The notes beneath the pieces were generated by a model. It had not been told where the DNA came from. It did no database searches and saw nothing but the letters and a program-made list of their open reading frames with translations. Source: Methanococcoides sp. EBM-47 (GTDB taxonomy: Archaea; Halobacteriota; Methanosarcinia; Methanosarcinales; Methanosarcinaceae). From it: a stretch of DNA of 64,000 nt. The translations under genes were made by a program, and so were the position numbers. This document shows, one piece after another, positions 457 through 13,556 of the stretch. The stretch covers positions 1 to 64,000 of the forward strand of contig MPPA01000047.1 in the NCBI GenBank assembly GCA_001896725.1, given 5' to 3'. Position 1 is the first letter of the stretch; each line of letters opens with the position of its first letter.

Positions 457-721
457 GGAGTTTTGAAATGAGTTCTTTTTCATTAAGTGCAAAGCCAATT
501 AGATCATCCATAATTGTTAATTTACTTAGATATTAGTTATATTTTAGTAAAATGGCTGGGTTTATCGAAATCTTCTAAAGTAATTTAAAATATAAGGTAT
601 GAATAGATATATTTATAAAAAAAATACAATAAATTTAATATACTATAAACGATAATAAAACATACAATCTATTACTTACTAATTTGAGGGAAATCGCACG
701 AAAGCAAATAGGAAGCATTCA

Positions 722-1600
722 ATGCACAAAGATGAAAGTGCACAGATGGGAATTGGTACACTCATCATATTCATATCAATGGTTCTTGTAGCTGCAGTAG
801 CTTCTGCGCTTCTCATCAAGACATCAGGGGTATTACAGCAGAAAGCTTCACGTACGGGCCAGGAAACTACAAAGGAAGTAGCCTCCAACCTACGTGTAGA
901 TCGAGTAGAAGGTGAACGTGCGACCTATGGAACAGTCACTGTTACTAGTAGTGGCCTTTCAAACGCCAATATTGAAATTCCCAAAGGAGGCATAGTGGAA
1001 TGGATCTCAGAAGGTGAACCTTTCACAGTTAATCTTGGGAACATTACTGCAGATGTAAAGAAAAATTCATATTATGAACACAGATTCACTACTGAGGGAA
1101 CCTATTCTTTCACGGTCTCAGGCAATGTATCTGGTAACAACAGCGGGACAATTAAAGTATCTAATAAACTGGACTATGGGGAGATCACAAAATTACATAT
1201 CTCTGTATCGCTTGGTCCTGGTAGTGAAGATGTGGATCTTTCACAGCTCATTGTATACATGTCAGACGGAGCACATATTGCAAATTTAAGATACGATACC
1301 AGCAACACAGAATCAGACATCCACTTGCCAACAGAAGAATATATTTCAGTCAGCCCAATACGGATACGAGACCAGTCCATGTTCAAAGCAAATCAGCCAG
1401 TATTACGTACTGGAGATATAATGGAACTGGTCATAGATATACGTAAAGTGTTTTCAAAAGAGGAAACTGGATATAGAGGTTTACCTACAAGAACAGAGTT
1501 ATCGATCCAAGTAAGGCCTGAAGCGGGCGCATTGGTAATATTTGATTTTACAACACCTGGTGCATACTTTGATAATAGGTATGTTCTATTGTATTATTAA
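722..1600 (+). CDS. Archaellin (archaeal flagellin) with cupredoxin-like insert
   Basis: This 292-aa protein starts with a class III (prepilin-like) signal in which AQMG precedes [16 protein letters not shown], the hallmark of archaellins cleaved by FlaK/PibD. The conserved helix continues through [10 protein letters not shown] to about residue 58. The archaellin beta domain resumes at about 153 ([20 protein letters not shown]). Between them, residues 70-147 form an extra beta domain with a cupredoxin-like pattern: [11 protein letters not shown], then [13 protein letters not shown] and GTIKV. The His and Cys copper ligands of true cupredoxins are missing. Several N-X-S/T sequons (N107, N135, N139) suggest glycosylation. 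No other archaellum genes are nearby, so this is an orphan filament subunit. An AGGAAG ribosome site precedes the ATG. Confidence 0.85.
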
Positions 1601-1642: not shown

Positions 1643-2225
1643 ATGCAGAAAAATGTGATAATGTATATGTAACATTGCCCCTTACGAGCTCAAAAACATA
1701 GGACCCTGATACAGGCTTTTCGATCACTATGCCCATATCCAATGAATTAAATGTATCAATCGGGAACCATCTGCCGGTATCTGACCGGATACCCTGACAG
1801 AAGTTGATCTGCTCAGCTTCTATTATCCATCTCTTCTTAAGGCCGTTGTCATATCTGTAAATGATGGTATTCTTTTCTGCGTTCCAATCAGAGTTCTTTA
1901 CATTGCCATCATTATCAGGGTCCGGGTCTACACCAAAACCAACATAAGTGATCTCTGGTGGAAAATCAAGCTCAATGGAGCACATACTACCCTCGGAACT
2001 GAAAGGCGCGTAAAGATCACGTGCTTTACCGCGTTGGAGAGAAAGTAGTTCAAGGGATGCTTCAGACAATTGTTTCTCAACATCATAACCATGCTTTACT
2101 GGAACAATGGTATTCCATGATATTGATACTAAAACAAGTATGCAACCCGTGATCACTAAATAGACCACCATTTTCAAGGGAACGGTATCTATACCTTCGT
2201 TATCTTTGAAGAAGCTTCGCCTCAA
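1641..2225 (-). CDS. Secreted pilin-like membrane protein of unknown function
   Basis: This 194-aa protein has a short charged N-terminus ending in DNEGIDTVPLKMVV, followed by one hydrophobic helix (about residues 19-38), resembling archaeal prepilin-like or pseudopilin N-termini. The rest is a predicted extracellular domain with two cysteines (about C82 and C142). I do not recognise a named family. The start is a TTG preceded by an AGGTGG ribosome site overlapping the stop of the upstream XTP pyrophosphatase gene, so it is probably translated from the same message. The TAG stop sits at the edge of the terminator hairpin. Confidence 0.65.
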   Translation of the reverse strand: MRRSFFKDNEGIDTVPLKMVVYLVITGCILVLVSISWNTIVPVKHGYDVEKQLSEASLELLSLQRGKARDLYAPFSSEGSMCSIELDFPPEITYVGFGVDPDPDNDGNVKNSDWNAEKNTIIYRYDNGLKKRWIIEAEQINFCQGIRSDTGRWFPIDTFNSLDMGIVIEKPVSGSYVFELVRGNVTYTLSHFSA

Positions 2226-4402: not shown

Positions 4403-6280
4403 TTACTCTTTCTTCAGGTATTCATATCCAACTGCAAGTATCCCCATCAACACTAAAACAATTATGTATGTCCATATCCTTGATTTCCCTGTTTTAGTGT
4501 TCTCCAATGCAATATCCTCTATATTCGTGTTATTTTCACCAGTACCATCGATAGATGCAGCAAATTTCTTTCCTGCTGTGATCGCAAATGGAGAAAATCC
4601 AGGTGTCTGAGCTTTGAATATAGAATAGCCGGTATTATTGCCTTCCAAGGTAGTGGGCAATATTTCCCATGCATTTCCATTATACCTCTGCAAACTTATG
4701 TCATCAGCGCTTATTGCCATCTCTTTCATCCATGAGTTGCTCACTATGAACCTCACCTGTGCATCTTCAATGTTAGCAGGTGTAGCAAATCCAGCCTTAC
4801 CTACCCATATATTGACATACTTATATAGCAAGCCTTCTGGGTTCATGGGTACAAGTTTTGATCGACCGTTCAGCACTTCTATAGTGGAAGTGATCTCACC
4901 TGAGTTCTTAAGGGAATAGAAGCTAATGGACTGTATATCATTGCCTGGCCTTGAAAACTCATAAGTGACATAGGCGTTCATTCTCAGATATCTCTTGGCC
5001 ACATCTTTCAGTGCAACGTTCGCAAAGTCCTCAACACTGTCTGCACCACCTCCTCCACCACTGCTACTACTACTCTTTTTACTGCTACTTCCTCCACTAC
5101 TGCCACTGCTGCTGGAAGAGGATGTGGTAGCTGAATCATTCACCCATGTTGTATTTATGTTCCCGGCAGTATCCACTGTTTGAATGCCAATGGTATGTAC
5201 GGTCCCTTCGAGGAACCCTGTTGCATTGTAATGATTGGAGGGAGTGGTGGTGACAAATGCACCATCTATGTATATTCTCACATGGCCGAAGTCTGCATCA
5301 GGAGGATTGGACCATATCCAGTGGACCCAGTTCGTTCCTGTAGATGTTTCCCTCAGGCCTGTAACAGATGCTGGTGGAGTGGTATCTCTGGTGTTTATGG
5401 TCCTGGTGGTCGCCTGATCGGTCACCATTGTAGGATTTATGTTCCCGGCAGTATCCACAGTTTGAATGCCAATGGTATGCAAGGTCCCTTCGGTGAATCC
5501 TGTCGCATTGTAATGATTGGAGGGAGTGGTGGTGACAAATGCACCATCTATATATACTCTCACATGGCCGAAGTCTGCATCAGGAGGATTGGTCCATGTC
5601 CAGTGTACCCAGTTCGTTCCTGTAGATGTTTCCCTCAGGTCTGTAACAGGTGCTGGTGGAGTGGTATCTCTGGTCCTGGTGGTCGCCTGATCGGTCACCA
5701 TTGTAGGATTTATGTTCCCGGCAGTATCCACGGTTTGAATGCCAATGGTGTGCACTGTTCCTTCAAGGAACCCTGTTGCATTGTAATGATTGGCGGGAGT
5801 GGTGGTGACAAATGCACCATCTATATATACTCTCACATGAGCGAAGTCTGCATCAGGGGGATTGGACCATGTCCAGTGGACCCAGTTCGTTCCTGTAGAT
5901 GTTTCCCTCAGGTCTGTAACGGGAGCGGGGGGCACCTGCCTTGAAGCATCAAAAGTAGTTTCAGCTGCTTTCAGGGCCGTAACTGCCTGGATTACATTTT
6001 CGTTCGTTGTATTTGGATCATCAGCAACTCTCTGTGCCTTAGTGATAGCTGATCTGAAAGTGTCCATTGATGCTTGCGAATACTGACCGGTCCCGGTTCC
6101 AGCAACTGCACCTTCCAATTTTATAGAAGCTTTTTCAATAGCTGATATTAATTCACTCTTGTCAACAGTCACATTATCCACTAAGGCAGCTTCTGTGCCG
6201 GTCACCACAAATAGCAATATTATTCCGAAGTAAATCATTCCTACAACCGAATATAACAATCCGTTCAGTTTGATCTGCAT
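4403..6280 (-). CDS. Secreted surface protein: FIVAR, three Fn3-like repeats, PGF-pre-PGF, membrane anchor
   Basis: A 625-aa cell-envelope protein is predicted. After a signal sequence (about residues 9-31) come a small helical FIVAR-like segment (about 40-115) and three nearly identical domains of about 91-94 residues, each containing TSTGTNWVHW and HTIGIQTVDTAGNIN, which fit a fibronectin III-like fold. A Ser/Gly-rich linker follows, then a PGF-pre-PGF domain (starting VEDFANVALKDV, ending PGFSPFAIT) and a C-terminal transmembrane helix with a YLKKE tail. The PGF-pre-PGF domain is known from methanogen surface proteins. I prefer the ATG at 6280 over the GTG at 6292 because the AGGAG site sits too close to the latter. 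The ligand is unknown; adhesion or matrix binding is inference. Confidence 0.85.
   Translation of the reverse strand: MQIKLNGLLYSVVGMIYFGIILLFVVTGTEAALVDNVTVDKSELISAIEKASIKLEGAVAGTGTGQYSQASMDTFRSAITKAQRVADDPNTTNENVIQAVTALKAAETTFDASRQVPPAPVTDLRETSTGTNWVHWTWSNPPDADFAHVRVYIDGAFVTTTPANHYNATGFLEGTVHTIGIQTVDTAGNINPTMVTDQATTRTRDTTPPAPVTDLRETSTGTNWVHWTWTNPPDADFGHVRVYIDGAFVTTTPSNHYNATGFTEGTLHTIGIQTVDTAGNINPTMVTDQATTRTINTRDTTPPASVTGLRETSTGTNWVHWIWSNPPDADFGHVRIYIDGAFVTTTPSNHYNATGFLEGTVHTIGIQTVDTAGNINTTWVNDSATTSSSSSSGSSGGSSSKKSSSSSGGGGGADSVEDFANVALKDVAKRYLRMNAYVTYEFSRPGNDIQSISFYSLKNSGEITSTIEVLNGRSKLVPMNPEGLLYKYVNIWVGKAGFATPANIEDAQVRFIVSNSWMKEMAISADDISLQRYNGNAWEILPTTLEGNNTGYSIFKAQTPGFSPFAITAGKKFAASIDGTGENNTNIEDIALENTKTGKSRIWTYIIVLVLMGILAVGYEYLKKE
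5120..5940. repeat. Three tandem domain repeats within the surface gene
   Basis: The block beginning TCCCGGCAGTATCCAC recurs at 5161, 5443 and 5716, giving periods of 282 and 273 nt. The 9-nt difference is an extra three-residue linker (INT) between two copies. Base-level near-identity points to recent duplication or ongoing gene conversion. Confidence 0.9.
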
Positions 6281-6600
6281 TTTACCATCCACTCCTAAGT
6301 AAGAGAGGACTTGTGCCTCTTACGATCAATTCACAATACTTTGATATGTCCTTTAAGACCTTATAAGTATTAAAAATCAGCAAATATCTTCTCAGCTATA
6401 TACTATATATTTAGCTCAAACTGATATTTATACCTATATGTTTGGGATTCGCTAGGGATTTCCGTGCTACTACCTGCTTTTAGACCCTGTCATTGACTTA
6501 AGGTTCCTGTATTCTTTTTTCAACAGCAGATCTATTTTTCTATAAAATGTAATAGGCTTGCATCTAATTAAAAATTGATATAACTAGAAAGTACTGGACC

Positions 6601-6809
6601 ATGAACCTACATGGCCTGTTAGAAGATTATTTAGTTTATAGTAAATGCTGTAAGAGCCCCCATAACCTGGTTCATGGAACAGATTATGGAATGTAAGGCC
6701 TTACAGCGATCTGGTGAAGAAAAATATTAAAGGAATGATGGCAGGAAAGCTCAAAGAAACGGATATAAAAAACGAACACTGGCATTGATTATGACAAGGT
6801 CGTATCAAA
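6601..6809 (+). pseudogene. IS256-family transposase N-terminal relic, copy 2
   Basis: ATG at 6601 reads MNLHGLLEDYLVYSK and then loses frame. In the shifted frame the bases encode WFMEQIMECKALQRSGEEKY, a stop, then RNDGRKAQRNGYKKRTL, matching copy 1 at 243-456. It therefore carries at least one frameshift and one nonsense mutation. Together the two copies reconstruct an intact ancestral start, which copy 1 has lost. The similarity begins about 20 nt before the ATG, so upstream element sequence is shared too. Confidence 0.72.
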
Positions 6810-7049
6810 GTCCGATATATAATATGGATATATAATATGCATTATCATCCACTGCCACAATGCATGATGCAGCACTTGTCCTACAAGGACCATGTCAAGG
6901 ATGCCTGCAAGATTGACAGAAGTGTCACTATCAGAAATAACAATACTACCACAACACGGATAATCCCATAGATTTGATCTTAATCTTTCTTACCAGCTCC
7001 CCAGCAAAAAAGAACTTTGTCCTTTTGGGAACTTAAAGAAGTGTTTCTC

Positions 7050-7072
7050 CCCCTGCACTTAGTGTACAGGGG
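7050..7072 (-). terminator. Hairpin behind the beta-propeller surface gene
   Basis: CCCCTG (7050-7055) pairs with CAGGGG (7067-7072), extended by CAC/GTG across a two-base bulge. It lies 16 nt past the stop of the minus-strand gene ending at 7088. An almost identical hairpin follows the next surface gene (9501-9526). There is no U-run, so termination is inferred. Confidence 0.4.
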
Positions 7073-7087
7073 AACTACACCATCATC

Positions 7088-9412
7088 TCATTTTTTCTTT
7101 CTGTACATGTATCCAGCTACAAACATTCCAATTAATATTACAGCTATGACCGGAACAAAGAAATTGGAGCTTTTTGGCTGCGTTTGAACATGGTCCACAC
7201 TTTCTGTCTGGGCAGGATCGACCAGTTGATCCGATCTTGTAGCCTGTAACTTGGTATCTGTACTATTTACAGAGGTTTTATCCGCAGTGATGGCAAACGA
7301 AGAAAAGCCAGGAGTTGAAGCCCTGAATATCGCATAGTTTGGTGTATTGACAACCAATTCTGTAGGCAGCGCTTCCCATGCAGTTCCATCATATCTCTGC
7401 AACCTTATACTTTCGGGACTTATATCATTCTCCCCGATCCATGAATTATTTACCTTGAATTGTACCACTGCATCCTTTAGGTTAGCTCCCGTTGCAAAGC
7501 CGGCCTTCCCTACCCATATATTGATATATTTATACACAATACCTTCTGGATCACTGGTTACAAGCTTTGATCTGTTGTTCAGTACCTCTATGGTGGAAGC
7601 GATCTCACCTGAGTTCTTAAGGGAATAGAAGCTGATGGACTGTATGTCATTGCCTGGTCTTGTGAACTCATAGGTAACATTGGCATTCATCCTGAGGAAC
7701 TCATTGTCCACGTCTTTCAGTGCAATGTTCGAAAAGTCCTCAACACTGCCTGCACCACCACCTCCGCCGCTACTACTACTCTTTTTACTGCTACTTCCTC
7801 CACTACCTTCTCCACTGCTACCATTACTACTATCACTGCCTCCACTACTGTCGGAAGACGATGTACTCAAAGTGATAGTCGCCACATTTCCTTTAGTCCC
7901 ATTAGTGTAATAAGACAACAGAGAATAGGTATAACTGGTATCACTGTCCAGTCCATTGTCCTCATATGTTGATACAGAACCCATGATGTTACCAATAAAG
8001 ACGTCATTGCGATACATTTCAACATGATCCATATCCTGAGAGTTAGTCCAGGTCAATGTTATAGCGGTTGGACTGATGGCCTTTCCAGAAAGGTTTGAGA
8101 TCTGTGGCCCAGAAGAGGTAGCATCTGGAGCTGTAACAAAAATAGTAATTATTTCTGAATCAATAAGATCGTTTGATTCCGCAGTAAATTTGATAATATA
8201 ATTGCCTTCAATATCCGGGGTCCAGCTGAAAGCACCTGTGACCGTATCAAAGGCAGCTCCATCTGGAAGGTTTGAAGCAGAGTATGAGATAGGATCACCA
8301 TCATGGTCTGTTGCTGAAACAGTGAACGTAAGTAATTGACCCATAGTTACCGACCTATCACCTATTTCTGAAATTACTGGTGGCTGATCTATTTTATTCC
8401 CTGGAGTCACATTTCCCGTGTAATTGCCTGAGAGATCATTAAGTGTGAATATCACAAGACCATTACTGGAATCGGCCACAAAGGCATAATTGTCAGCCAC
8501 AGCAACATTATGGGCATAATCACCATCATAGTTCCCTATATAGGCAGGAGATAAGGGATTGCTAACATCTACAACAGAAACACCCATACCATCAGCTAAA
8601 TAGGCATAGTTGCCTGAAACTGCAACACAATTTGAATCGCCATTGCTGGGATACTTACCCGCTAGAACTGGTACGGACGGATCACTGACATCCAGAATTA
8701 CGAGACCATTGTAATCAGCCACATAGGCATAATTACCTGATATAACAGAACTATATGCATAAATGGAATCATATGTCCCTGTAAGGCTTGGAGAAGAAGG
8801 ATCAGAAATATCTATGATCACAAGGCCGCTACTGCCATCTAAAATAGCTTTGCCATCATCAGCTACATATGCATAGTTACCTGATACAGTGACCCCATTC
8901 GCAAATCCAGCGGTATCATAGGCCCCTGCAAGGGTCGGTGATGAAGGGACAGTTATATCAAGAATAACAAGGCCGCTAAAACCAGAAGCTGCATAAGCAT
9001 AATTATCCGAAAGAGCAATACCTTGTACAAAACTGTCTTCAGTACTATATGTACCTACAATGCTTGGGGAAAATGAAGTACTGATATCAACAATAGTAAC
9101 TCCGTTGCCTCCATTGGCTACATAAGCATAATTATCTGATATTACGATATCATATATTTCTGATGAAACGGTTACCCTACCCACCTCCGAAGGAGAAGTT
9201 ACATCGCTTATATCAAGTATGACAAGGTCCTGACCCTGGTCAATATAGGCATAATCACCCGCTGCCGCAATGCATGATACATCTTCACTGAACTGACCAA
9301 CAATGTCCACATTGATGTTATCTGCTGAACAGATCCCGGTGGCCATTATCAAAAGGAACAATACTGACACTGAATAGGCCGATCTACTTACATTGGTTTG
9401 CACTTTTATCAC
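7088..9412 (-). CDS. Secreted LVIVD beta-propeller surface protein with PGF-pre-PGF module
   Basis: The 774-aa protein has an N-terminal signal (hydrophobic residues about 13-29) and seven LVIVD-type blades (about 35-325; repeated cores such as LVILDISD...SP with NYAYVA), consistent with a seven-bladed beta-propeller. An Ig-like putative cadherin fold (about 340-430, ending FSWTPDIEGNY), a fibronectin III-like domain (about 435-520), a Ser/Gly linker, a PGF-pre-PGF domain (about 555-710) and a C-terminal helix with a YRKKK tail follow. The C-terminal third closely matches the proteins encoded on either side. The start may be GTG 9412 or the in-frame GTG 9403. Function is unknown; extracellular binding or S-layer association is likely from architecture. 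Confidence 0.85.
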   Translation of the reverse strand: MIKVQTNVSRSAYSVSVLFLLIMATGICSADNINVDIVGQFSEDVSCIAAAGDYAYIDQGQDLVILDISDVTSPSEVGRVTVSSEIYDIVISDNYAYVANGGNGVTIVDISTSFSPSIVGTYSTEDSFVQGIALSDNYAYAASGFSGLVILDITVPSSPTLAGAYDTAGFANGVTVSGNYAYVADDGKAILDGSSGLVIIDISDPSSPSLTGTYDSIYAYSSVISGNYAYVADYNGLVILDVSDPSVPVLAGKYPSNGDSNCVAVSGNYAYLADGMGVSVVDVSNPLSPAYIGNYDGDYAHNVAVADNYAFVADSSNGLVIFTLNDLSGNYTGNVTPGNKIDQPPVISEIGDRSVTMGQLLTFTVSATDHDGDPISYSASNLPDGAAFDTVTGAFSWTPDIEGNYIIKFTAESNDLIDSEIITIFVTAPDATSSGPQISNLSGKAISPTAITLTWTNSQDMDHVEMYRNDVFIGNIMGSVSTYEDNGLDSDTSYTYSLLSYYTNGTKGNVATITLSTSSSDSSGGSDSSNGSSGEGSGGSSSKKSSSSGGGGGAGSVEDFSNIALKDVDNEFLRMNANVTYEFTRPGNDIQSISFYSLKNSGEIASTIEVLNNRSKLVTSDPEGIVYKYINIWVGKAGFATGANLKDAVVQFKVNNSWIGENDISPESIRLQRYDGTAWEALPTELVVNTPNYAIFRASTPGFSSFAITADKTSVNSTDTKLQATRSDQLVDPAQTESVDHVQTQPKSSNFFVPVIAVILIGMFVAGYMYRKKK

Positions 9413-9500
9413 CAGCTCCTCAACAGTAGAGGATTTTCAGCACGATCAAATTATATAAAGCTCCTATAATTTACACAGGAAGCATCTAACCTTCTGTTCA

Positions 9501-9526
9501 AGCCCCTGCACTTGTGTAAAGGGGCT
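9501..9526 (-). terminator. Hairpin behind the protease-like surface gene
   Basis: AGCCCC (9501-9506) pairs with GGGGCT (9521-9526), with a further T-A pair, CAC/GTG pairing and a short loop. It lies 11 nt past the stop at 9537 on the minus strand, and its core sequence closely matches the hairpin at 7050-7072. Confidence 0.4.
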
Positions 9527-9536
9527 AGCAGATTAA

Positions 9537-12500
9537 TCATCGTTTGCTGAGATATACATATCCAACAGCAACTAATGATATAATAAATATACCTACGATG
9601 ATCGTCCAGGTGCTGGATCTTTTTGGCTGACTTTCTTTCAGGTCTGCATCTTCCATTTGAACAGGCTCTATGTCTGCAGCACTACTTACAGAGGAAGCTA
9701 GAACATTTTCAGCTGTAATGACAAATGGAGAAAATCCAGGGGTTATAGACTCAAATGTTGAATATTCTGAGTTCACACTTTCCGGGTACGTAGGCAATAT
9801 TGTCCACACACCTCCATCATATCTCTGTAACCTTATATCTGCAGGATCCACACCCTGTTCCTGAAGCCATGGAGTGGCAACCACGAACTTTATTCTTATA
9901 TCGTTGATATTTGAAGTTGATGAAAAACCAAACTTACCCACCCAGATATTAATATACTTATACACAAGGCCTTCTGGGTCGCTGGTAACTAGTCTCGACC
10001 TGTCTTTAAGGACCTCTACAGTGGAAGTGATCTCACCTGAGTTCTTAAGGGAATACAAACTAACCGACTTAATAGGATTACCTTCTCTTTTGAACTCATA
10101 GATAGCACTGGCATTCATTCTAAGGTACTCACTATCCACATCCTTTAGCACAACATTTGCAAAGTCCTCAGCACTGCTTGCGCCGCCTCCACCACCAGTA
10201 CTCCGGCTGGATGCAGAGCCACTGCTGCTTCCACTGTTACTTCCACCACTGCTTACTCCATTTCCACCATTGTTCGGAGAGGGAGAAGAGGTTAAAAGAG
10301 TAATGTTTACCATGGCACCTTCAGTTCCACCAACATCATAAGGCAGCAATGAATATTCATAGCTTGTATTGCTCTCCAATCCACTATCTGTATACTGAGA
10401 TGTGGACCCTGTTACATTCCCAATGATAGTACTGTTCCTGTATATCTCAACAAAAGCTATACCTGGAGAATTTGTCCAGGTCAAAGTGATGGAACTTGAA
10501 CTAATATCACTTGCTAAAAGATCGGAAATAAATGGAACTGCACCAAGCACATCGATCGTTATGGTCTGTGAATCATTTAGACCGTTAGACTCTGCAATGA
10601 ATGTAACAACATAACTCCCCGCAGCTGTCGGGGTCCAGCTGAAATCGCCTGTTTCGCTATTCAGTTCAGCTCCCTCAGGAAGTGCTTCTGCAGAATATGT
10701 GATAATATCCCCATCCTCATCAGTAGCAGAGATATTGAAGCTTAGAAGCTGGTTCTCGTCTGTGACCTTGTCACCAATGGCAGCAAACTGTGGTGCTCTG
10801 TCGACATTATGAACTGTTATCACCACATTTTCAGATTTCATCAGACCATTTGAACTAGCCACAAACCGGACATTATATACGCCTGAATCACTATAACTGG
10901 GAACCCAGTTGAATTCACCGGTCACATTGTTAAGACTGGCTTCATAAGGTAGGTTAGTGGCAAGATAGCTGATAGGGTCCATATCAAGATCGATGGCCGA
11001 GACCGTAAAACTAAGTAATTCGTTCTCGTTCACCTCTTTGTTACCAATAGGATTGAGTATAGGTTCTCTGTCAACATTGTTCACAGTGATAGTAATATAC
11101 TCTGAAACACTAAGATTATTTGCCTCTGCAGTAAAAACTACATTATAGATCCCTGAATCATTATAGCCTGGTATCCAGCTGAATATACCTGTTTCAGTAT
11201 CAAATATAGCCCCATCTGGCAGTCCAGTTGCAGATAATGTGATGATACCCCCTTCTGGATCACTGGCTGAAACAACAAATTCGAGCAGATCAGCCTCATT
11301 GATGAACTTATTGCCTATCGGGCCAAGATCTGGTGCTCTACCCATATCACCGACTGTGATAATTATTACTTCGGATACACTTAGGCCATTAGCTTCTGCA
11401 GTGAATGTCACCTGATAGTTACCAGCTGTACCATTAGAAGGTATCCAGCTGAAAGTTCCTGTAGCAGCATCAAATGTGGCATCAGTAGGCAAACCGGTGA
11501 CCGAGTATGTAACCACATCACCATCGGGATCACTTGCCGAGATCACAAATTCTAAGAGACTGCCTTCATTTATCCACTTGTTGCCGATCACCTGAAGTTC
11601 TGGTGCTCTGTCAACGTTATTGACCTTTATGACAGTTGTCCTGGAATCTGTGTACGTTCCATCTGACACAGAGAATATAACATTATATGTTCCAGCATCA
11701 TCATATGTAGGGGTCCAAGAGAACACATTACCTGTTAGGGTGCCAAAAGGAGCATCTGTAGAATATATGAGATCATCACCATCCATATCTGTGGCTAAGA
11801 GGCTGATGGTCAGATGTTGGGTTTCGTCTATTTCCCGATTACCAATATCTTCAAGTACAGGAGCATGGTTCACATAAGAAGTGAAACAGTTCAGTGCATC
11901 CACTCTCCCATATCCGGAATTATAATCAAAACCTGGAGGGCCTATATCCTCGGCACTTTCATATAGTATGGTCCGCACTTCAGCGGCTGACATGGTTACA
12001 TCACTTCCCCACAACTGTGCAGCCACAGCTGCAATATGAGGTGCTGATGCACTGGTTCCTGAGAAAATCGTGCCAAAATTACCTGCTCCAGTGACAGCTA
12101 CACGATTAATACCAGCAAGATCTGGTTTCTCTCTGACCGTAGAAACGGGATATGCAATTGTCACTGGTCCTCTCGATGAAAAGTATTCTACGTCATCGTG
12201 ACCAACGTCATTGGCAGATATAGCAGCCACTGCAATAACATCTGGCACTGCAGGATGACCAAATATAGAATCACTGGACGTGAGGTTTGTCTGGTCCAGA
12301 GTTACTGCAGAGGCAGGATATATGAAAAGTTCAAGAGTACACTGTTGTGCCGTACCATCACTATTTCTGATCTTTACATAAGCTGGTTCTGTAAGATATG
12401 ATGTCTTGATCCATTCTAATGGGTCGCCGTTACCATTTTGCCTATTAGAAGAAAAGGCAATGGTCCTCCCAGACCTGTCCAGGACATAAAGGTCATAATC

Positions 12501-13556
12501 ATTCGCAGAAGATCCAAATTGATCATCCCATTGGAGGAACAGCTGAAAAGATGTTCCCTTAGGAAGAGGAAATATCTTGTTGTGAAAACCAGTACCATCA
12601 TCAATGAACATTCCCTGATAATGCCTCGTTCCCGAGTTGCCAGCAGCTGAGATATATATTATATTATCATTTGCTATTACTTTAGCGACGTGTTTAGCAA
12701 CAACCCCATCTTCAAAGAATGGCTCATCAGGCCATGTAATATCATCTACTATAATAGTACAGCCTGATGCTATTAGTTCATCTATGGCATCGTTGAATTC
12801 ATATATACTATTCCCATGATCGTGGAAGTATAACTTTGCACCGGGAGCCATATCATGTATGATCTCCATCATGGCAATACCTTCATTACCACCTATATTA
12901 TTTCTTAAAATAGTAACATCTGATGGCAGATCCCCGGAAGCCTGTGCTGTGGATATTGCATCCACCCCATTAGAGATCACACCTACCTTTATACCATTAC
13001 CGTTATGGCGATAACCAGATCTTACAAGATTGGTCCTGTGTATAGCATCCCCTGCTGTCGTAACAGAACCAAGGTTCATCAGTGGGCGTGCAACTGTCCT
13101 TATATTGCGTACTTCTTTTAAGAGCGCTATCTCTTCCAGCCTGTATACATCTACCCAGGCAGCAACTTGGGAATTATCTTCATCTCTACTGGTAATGTTC
13201 CAGACATATGGGTCTAGTATCGTTGTTGGTTCCCCTTGTAGCAGACCGATATATACGAATACCAGTTGCTGCCCCGGTTCGCTATTTACTGAGGTATCTA
13301 AAGAAATAATAGTATTGGTATATGCAGTTGCTCCCAAACTGAGGTCCTCTGGGTCCGATATTAAACCTCTAAGGTCACTGCTGATCTTCTGCTGAGCCTC
13401 AGTCAAAAATGAACTGTCATTCAAAACCATGATACCTGTCTGGTCCACATTAGTAGTTCCAGTTACTACAGACAATGGACCAAAAATGACTATACATGAC
13501 AATAGTAAAATAATTGTACAACTAATCAGTTGCTTGATCTGTGTTTTAAAGTTCAT
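9537..13556 (-). CDS. Giant secreted subtilase-like protein with five Ig-like domains and PGF-pre-PGF module
   Basis: The 1339-aa protein has a signal peptide (about 10-32), a subtilisin-family (S8) domain (about 165-560), five cadherin/He_PIG-type Ig-like repeats (about 568-1015; each with IGNK...DGD and FSWTP or close variants), a fibronectin III-like domain, a Ser/Gly linker, a PGF-pre-PGF domain and a C-terminal transmembrane helix with KR tail. In the peptidase the nucleophile motif FSGTSASAPH (S502) and oxyanion AAGNSG (N307) are present. The Asp motif reads VGVISNGVD, with Asn at 196, and the region that normally holds the catalytic His reads NEGIAMMEIIHD, so activity is doubtful. ATG at 13556 has an AGGGG site. 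It probably acts outside the cell, anchored to the membrane. Confidence 0.85.
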   Translation of the reverse strand: MNFKTQIKQLISCTIILLLSCIVIFGPLSVVTGTTNVDQTGIMVLNDSSFLTEAQQKISSDLRGLISDPEDLSLGATAYTNTIISLDTSVNSEPGQQLVFVYIGLLQGEPTTILDPYVWNITSRDEDNSQVAAWVDVYRLEEIALLKEVRNIRTVARPLMNLGSVTTAGDAIHRTNLVRSGYRHNGNGIKVGVISNGVDAISTAQASGDLPSDVTILRNNIGGNEGIAMMEIIHDMAPGAKLYFHDHGNSIYEFNDAIDELIASGCTIIVDDITWPDEPFFEDGVVAKHVAKVIANDNIIYISAAGNSGTRHYQGMFIDDGTGFHNKIFPLPKGTSFQLFLQWDDQFGSSANDYDLYVLDRSGRTIAFSSNRQNGNGDPLEWIKTSYLTEPAYVKIRNSDGTAQQCTLELFIYPASAVTLDQTNLTSSDSIFGHPAVPDVIAVAAISANDVGHDDVEYFSSRGPVTIAYPVSTVREKPDLAGINRVAVTGAGNFGTIFSGTSASAPHIAAVAAQLWGSDVTMSAAEVRTILYESAEDIGPPGFDYNSGYGRVDALNCFTSYVNHAPVLEDIGNREIDETQHLTISLLATDMDGDDLIYSTDAPFGTLTGNVFSWTPTYDDAGTYNVIFSVSDGTYTDSRTTVIKVNNVDRAPELQVIGNKWINEGSLLEFVISASDPDGDVVTYSVTGLPTDATFDAATGTFSWIPSNGTAGNYQVTFTAEANGLSVSEVIIITVGDMGRAPDLGPIGNKFINEADLLEFVVSASDPEGGIITLSATGLPDGAIFDTETGIFSWIPGYNDSGIYNVVFTAEANNLSVSEYITITVNNVDREPILNPIGNKEVNENELLSFTVSAIDLDMDPISYLATNLPYEASLNNVTGEFNWVPSYSDSGVYNVRFVASSNGLMKSENVVITVHNVDRAPQFAAIGDKVTDENQLLSFNISATDEDGDIITYSAEALPEGAELNSETGDFSWTPTAAGSYVVTFIAESNGLNDSQTITIDVLGAVPFISDLLASDISSSSITLTWTNSPGIAFVEIYRNSTIIGNVTGSTSQYTDSGLESNTSYEYSLLPYDVGGTEGAMVNITLLTSSPSPNNGGNGVSSGGSNSGSSSGSASSRSTGGGGGASSAEDFANVVLKDVDSEYLRMNASAIYEFKREGNPIKSVSLYSLKNSGEITSTVEVLKDRSRLVTSDPEGLVYKYINIWVGKFGFSSTSNINDIRIKFVVATPWLQEQGVDPADIRLQRYDGGVWTILPTYPESVNSEYSTFESITPGFSPFVITAENVLASSVSSAADIEPVQMEDADLKESQPKRSSTWTIIVGIFIISLVAVGYVYLSKR

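Follow-up and report, generated by a model that had tools for sequence, protein, structure and literature searches.

The window analysed here, a DNA stretch of 64,000 nucleotides, carries a stand-alone archaellin gene whose product is probably (at a rough estimate of 0.6) a specialised minor archaellin with an outer, metal-free cupredoxin domain that bears nearly all of its N-glycosylation sites and would, in few copies, offer a glycan-bearing surface for contact or adhesion. As judged from sequence comparisons, the protein is a separate, widely conserved paralogue and not an ordinary filament archaellin, which the preliminary description of this locus had missed. The features of the gene and its upstream region are collected in Table 1.

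Table 1. Features of the stand-alone archaellin gene (positions in the window)
Feature	Position	Strand	Basis
GAGGG, Shine-Dalgarno-like	686..690	+	spaced for ACG, not for ATG 722
ACG, candidate start codon	698..700	+	300 aa (698-1597); place of the ATG in MKAN-type archaellins
Stand-alone archaellin gene	722..1600	+	PF01917 (E 3e-28), TIGR02537, orthologues 65-88% identical
Archaellin N-terminal hydrophobic helix and first head strand	740..919	+	residues 7-66, invariant positions
Inserted domain, predicted metal-free cupredoxin	920..1177 (approx.)	+	residues ~67-152; AF2, Foldseek, hhalign
Phe101, invariant, first copper His position	1022..1024	+	F in 37/37; aligned to plastocyanin/lipoprotein His
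Sequon N107-I-T	1040..1048	+	sequence motif
Sequon N135-V-S, at the second copper His place	1124..1132	+	sequence motif, alignment to cupredoxins
Sequon N139-N-S	1136..1144	+	sequence motif
Remaining archaellin head domain, canonical metal site degenerate	1178..1597	+	residues 153-292

An archaellin interrupted by an additional domain

The open reading frame at 722-1597 (+), followed by a stop codon at 1598-1600, encodes 292 aa if read from the ATG at 722. Its PF01917 match is split in two stretches and the match to TIGR02537 (E 7e-7) lies over the cut-off; together with the alignment to solved archaellins these matches identify a type IV pilin-like N-terminus. The alignment with solved archaellins covers residues 8-66 and resumes at 153-155, and the solved proteins have few residues in between, so that residues ~67-152 represent an insertion of ~86 residues. 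The preliminary description had proposed that residues 70-147 (929-1162) break the archaellin domain; these lie inside the insertion, which is larger than was seen at the time. The insert recurs in 37 orthologues and is absent from the genome's four arl-type archaellins, which are encoded on contig C51. The four closest genome records, Methanomethylovorans or Methanosarcinaceae MAGs, show 72-88% identity across the whole protein, which puts the window in or very near Methanomethylovorans.

The scaffold of these orphan archaellins also deviates from that of the arl archaellins. The helix differs at fixed positions, for example Lys33 for Gln. The canonical metal site D.D.S..N..D, which is a trait of several solved members and does not define the family, is intact in the arl archaellins, where the region reads IRDEDxSF..NPVMNTGD; in the orphan clade, where the corresponding stretch begins with IRx, the site is lost (D to I, T or S; N to R). 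A model of the full-length protein reached a pLDDT of 73, with parts of the head at 50-60 and the strands of the insert present at 80-90; because this model is only moderately confident, the orientation of the domains is not predictable from it. Foldseek with this model returned archaellum filaments first (E to 1.7e-10) and cupredoxins next.

Predicted fold and relatives of the insert

Modelled alone with AF2 from the 37 orthologues, the insert yielded eight strands with a mean pLDDT of 92.1 and a pTM of 0.82. When this model was compared with the PDB using Foldseek, the best 50 matches listed were all of the cupredoxin fold (best E 7e-6, probability 1.00), among them 5fc9, pseudoazurin, amicyanin, CuA and plastocyanin. 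The insert is thus predicted to fold as a domain of its own, a Greek-key beta sandwich, as had been suggested for a cupredoxin-like domain, and not as part of a standard archaellin barrel alone. Homology points in the same direction: plastocyanin ranked first in a PDB search with the insert profile (E 0.013), and hhalign of the insert profile against eight cupredoxin-type proteins from a genome search, seven of them with copper ligands, gave 96.8% at E 2.4e-10, with the reversed, column-shuffled and archaellin-head controls failing at E 0.035-0.66. When the profile was run against 393 genomes of the phylum, 20 regions with matches beyond the orthologues were fetched and read; for the most part they hold small proteins, secreted or anchored by a lipid, that show a cupredoxin pattern. 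Both copper-type and ligand-less proteins were present, one protein being much longer, and several of the cupredoxin-type matches from this search pass the Pfam cupredoxin cut-offs. The nearest relatives of the domain outside archaellins are ligand-less lipoproteins with a GTYNFSV-type strand. We consider the assignment of the insert as a cupredoxin confirmed by predicted fold and homology and well outside what chance would give, in line with the pattern that had been noticed in residues 70-147.

Searches with the single sequence proved too weak to reveal this relationship: a Pfam scan of the window's own insert gave no match, with only weak matches among its relatives, and single-sequence searches of Pfam, NCBIfam and the PDB with it returned nothing or matches at E 0.016-0.9. 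Bacterial flagellin and oxalate decarboxylase are among these matches and were dismissed as chance. In one stretch, an alignment to 9v95 and 9v96, archaellins of 454-463 aa, extends into the region of the insert; both were absent from the matches when insert plus flank served as the query.

Loss of the copper site

The copper His and Cys had been described as replaced, and alignment of the insert to copper cupredoxins bears this out: Val132 stands in place of the Cys and Asn135 in place of the second His, with the first His position taken by Phe (Table 1). The blue copper ligand set of His, Cys, His and Met is absent from the insert, and the 37 inserts share no conserved His/Cys/Met set, Cys occurring 13 times in all. 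Since fold and homology hold and the ligands are replaced, the term metal-free cupredoxin was well chosen.

Two other readings of the domain were considered. Some cupredoxins use unusual ligands, and with its cupredoxin fold the insert could bind a metal or other ligand at a rearranged site and serve electron transfer or metal capture; the invariant Phe at the first His position and the missing His/Cys/Met set make this very improbable. Just as little weight is due to the disfavoured reading of the insert as another beta-sandwich, immunoglobulin- or PKD-like, whose resemblance to cupredoxins is coincidental. In Pfam scans of single members weak PKD matches are indeed as frequent as cupredoxin ones, but a coincidence is hard to reconcile with the uniform cupredoxin fold of the best 50 Foldseek matches listed, with the cupredoxin-type lipoproteins that come next in the 393-genome search, or with the hhalign result and its clean controls.

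Outer face of the filament, sequons and evolutionary rate

The insertion is located in the beta1-beta2 turn of the archaellin head. The same turn of M. villosus ArlB2 contains Asn70, which is among six glycosylated residues in the filament map (PMC8821640); the correspondence was derived by alignment to the solved archaellin, minus a 12-residue leader. As the insertion turn is glycosylated in the M. villosus archaellum, the insert should, by analogy, lie on the outer face of the filament and have room for bulk there, which agrees with the outer-surface decoration proposed earlier.

Sequons are concentrated in the insert. Counted as sequence motifs alone, N-x-S/T sites number 111 in the inserts of the 37 orthologues, where shuffling expects 51, and 3 in the scaffolds, where 18 are expected; the insert also contains more Asn, Ser and Thr, and the composition control [ST]xN occurs 70 times in inserts and 16 times in scaffolds. 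This distribution supports the glycan display that had been put forward for the domain. The insert also changes about four times faster at the protein level, with a median dN of 0.21 versus 0.05 in the scaffold; both parts are under purifying selection (dN/dS about 0.18 and about 0.06, respectively). Sequons are nearly absent from the scaffold, which is hyperconserved. Together, these patterns suggest a conserved polymerising body combined with a variable, putatively sugar-bearing outer domain.

A conserved ACG codon as candidate start

The frame ahead of ATG 722 runs ACG AAA GCA AAT (TKAN), which is homologous to the ATG AAA GCA AAT (MKAN) of the arl archaellins; the orthologues of genus g12 and the printed ones of families f38 and f39 have MKAN with ATG. 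The ACG is found in 37/37 orthologues from genera g1, g2, g3, g11 and g14, no other Thr codon occurs in its place, and codons 2-4 after it show synonymous changes only. A GAGG/GGAG core at the right spacing precedes the ACG in 37/37 and the ATG in 0/37, and most g11 sequences have an in-frame stop directly upstream of the ACG. Initiation at the ACG would give an arl-like leader of 14 residues beginning with M/T, initiation at 722 one of 6 residues, which is still above the five leader residues required by FlaK (PMC4307647). Annotation would put the start at 722. The ATG at 722 is likewise present in 37/37, but it does not decide the start, because a Met also occupies this place in the leader of some arl archaellins that truly start at MKAN. 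A short upstream ORF coupling translation to ATG 722 in genomes presumably of Methanolobus type was also considered and rejected, as by eye its frame varies between species.

From these comparisons we favour the ACG as at least one real start. The further idea is tentative and falls somewhat short of even odds: an ancestral ATG may have changed to ACG and been kept with its Shine-Dalgarno sequence and leader in five genera as a built-in low-output start, giving few copies per filament of a glycosylated, cupredoxin-bearing archaellin.

Distribution and genomic context

Within the family, 37 genomes have a full-length orthologue (65-88% identity) and four further ones a split or altered copy; more distant full-length orthologues come from two more families, f38 and f39, of the same class. 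A maximum-likelihood tree calculated without the insert separates 27 orphan from 20 arl archaellins with a support of 100/100, and the orphan clade is monophyletic across three families of the class; no root is claimed for the tree because both sides are long branches. ArlG is present in 50/52 orphan-bearing genomes and in 53/186 of the rest (Fisher p 6e-20, uncorrected for kinship), and the two carriers without it are genomes of 76% and 85% completeness. The genome of the window (G000) has ArlG and four arl archaellins alongside the orphan archaellin. The orphan archaellin is not needed for the archaellum, since 53 ArlG-positive genomes lack it.

The orphan gene has kept its neighbourhood across genera and in most genomes lies apart from the arl genes; in g12 it adjoins an archaellum protein of the Arch_fla_DE family. 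An operon function was rejected: the neighbours in most genomes (PHP phosphatase, cyclase and Ham1) are housekeeping, so that the synteny shows age and not a pathway. The window lacks the upstream neighbours, since it begins where the contig does. A remnant of a Mutator-family transposase (PF00872) lies at the contig start (~331-456), and the PHP gene, normally two genes upstream of the archaellin, is found on another contig (G000:C34:963-1610). Convergent with the archaellin gene, a gene at 1644-2225 (-) encodes a protein of 194 aa that has a hydrophobic segment at its N-terminus, matches nothing in Pfam or NCBIfam and is kept beside the archaellin in Methanomethylovorans and several g11 genomes. 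Three large surface proteins follow in a row at 4403-13556 (-), with fn3, with LVIVD repeats, and a subtilase with Ig-like repeats; their C-terminal regions are similar, and the first matches PGF-pre-PGF (TIGR04213, E 2.7e-49).

Among the more distant orthologues the insert varies. Those of g12 (L050 8576-9592 and L052 15250-16302) carry a longer, different insert of 136-148 aa at the same place, and comparison did not establish these or the f39 insert as cupredoxins. The f38 insert is homologous to that of the window (E 2e-7) and weak when compared directly with copper cupredoxins. The arl archaellins of f38 (L106, L107, L108) reach an unusual length of about 300-370 aa and have extensive variable regions in the head domain.

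Proposed role of the orphan archaellin

According to the reading we prefer, the protein would be exported and processed like other archaellins and polymerise via its conserved N-terminal helix. The copper-free, cupredoxin-derived insert would thereby be presented on the outer face of the filament with nearly all N-glycosylation sites. Its most likely role is that of a glycan-bearing surface for contact or adhesion, few copies of which would sit on the archaellum, perhaps at the tip or the base. What the analysis shows is the predicted fold of the domain and its homology, the replaced ligands, the distinct paralogue, its occurrence together with the archaellum and the placing of the sequons; we infer that the orphan archaellin enters the filament, is glycosylated in vivo, is present in few copies and mediates adhesion.

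The gene's distance from the arl genes and its own conserved neighbourhood, the fixed differences in the helix and the degenerate metal site would also suit a protein outside the archaellum, namely an archaellin-derived pilin that is membrane-anchored or forms an adhesive pilus of its own. We regard this as unlikely, given that the gene occurs almost strictly with ArlG, adjoins archaellum genes in g12, and encodes a complete and hyperconserved archaellin head. A little more plausible, though still doubtful, is a mainly structural hook or terminal archaellin at the base or tip, in which the cupredoxin domain acts as a spacer or cap contact instead of an adhesin. The conservation of the scaffold suggests fixed partners, and there is precedent in Methanococcus and Halobacterium, where specific archaellins form the curved hook region (PMC4307647). 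The insert, however, which would be expected to make the special contacts, evolves fast and is loaded with sequons.

Relation to known systems and implications

With the archaellins ArlB/FlaB (PF01917; M. villosus ArlB1/ArlB2 7ofq, Pyrococcus furiosus 5o4u, Methanococcus maripaludis 5z1l) the orphan protein has the N-terminal helix, the head domain and the class III signal peptide in common; it differs in the ~86-residue beta1-beta2 insert, the replaced metal-site residues, the position of the gene outside the arl cluster and the nearly sequon-free scaffold. The insert shares the fold and strand-by-strand pattern of cupredoxins (the purple cupredoxin of Nitrosopumilus maritimus 5fc9, amicyanin, pseudoazurin, plastocyanin 1bxu; PF00127/PF13473), but cupredoxins are soluble or lipid-anchored, whereas the insert has no copper ligands and sits within a filament protein. 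The metal-free cupredoxin-like lipoproteins of Methanosarcinaceae and relatives (L075, L076, L088) have the same ligand-less pattern and GTYNFSV-type strand; unlike the insert, they are lipobox-anchored and free-standing, without an archaellin scaffold. Lipoproteins with the GTYNFSV pattern form a ligand-less cupredoxin-like family in Methanosarcinaceae genomes (L075, L076, L077, L081, L088), and the two that were scanned, L075 and L076, fall below Pfam detection.

Most descriptions of archaella depict fairly smooth filaments built from one or a few similar subunits. Additional archaellin material is also seen in Oxiplasma meridianum, as a spike formed by V126-L153 (PMC12448462), and in Halorubrum FlaB2, as an AidA-superfamily insert (PMC7349177), with adhesion proposed by the authors in both cases; there, however, it occupies another place or is another domain, and it is not a cupredoxin. 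In the open-access literature searched, we found no paper linking cupredoxins with archaellins, the five that contain both terms being judged by titles, abstract openings and term counts. If the ACG is the start codon, the gene would provide a testable case of start-codon-based dosage control in Archaea. As a conserved, separately encoded, cupredoxin-displaying archaellin, the protein is a concrete candidate for how methanogens may touch surfaces or partners with their swimming filament.
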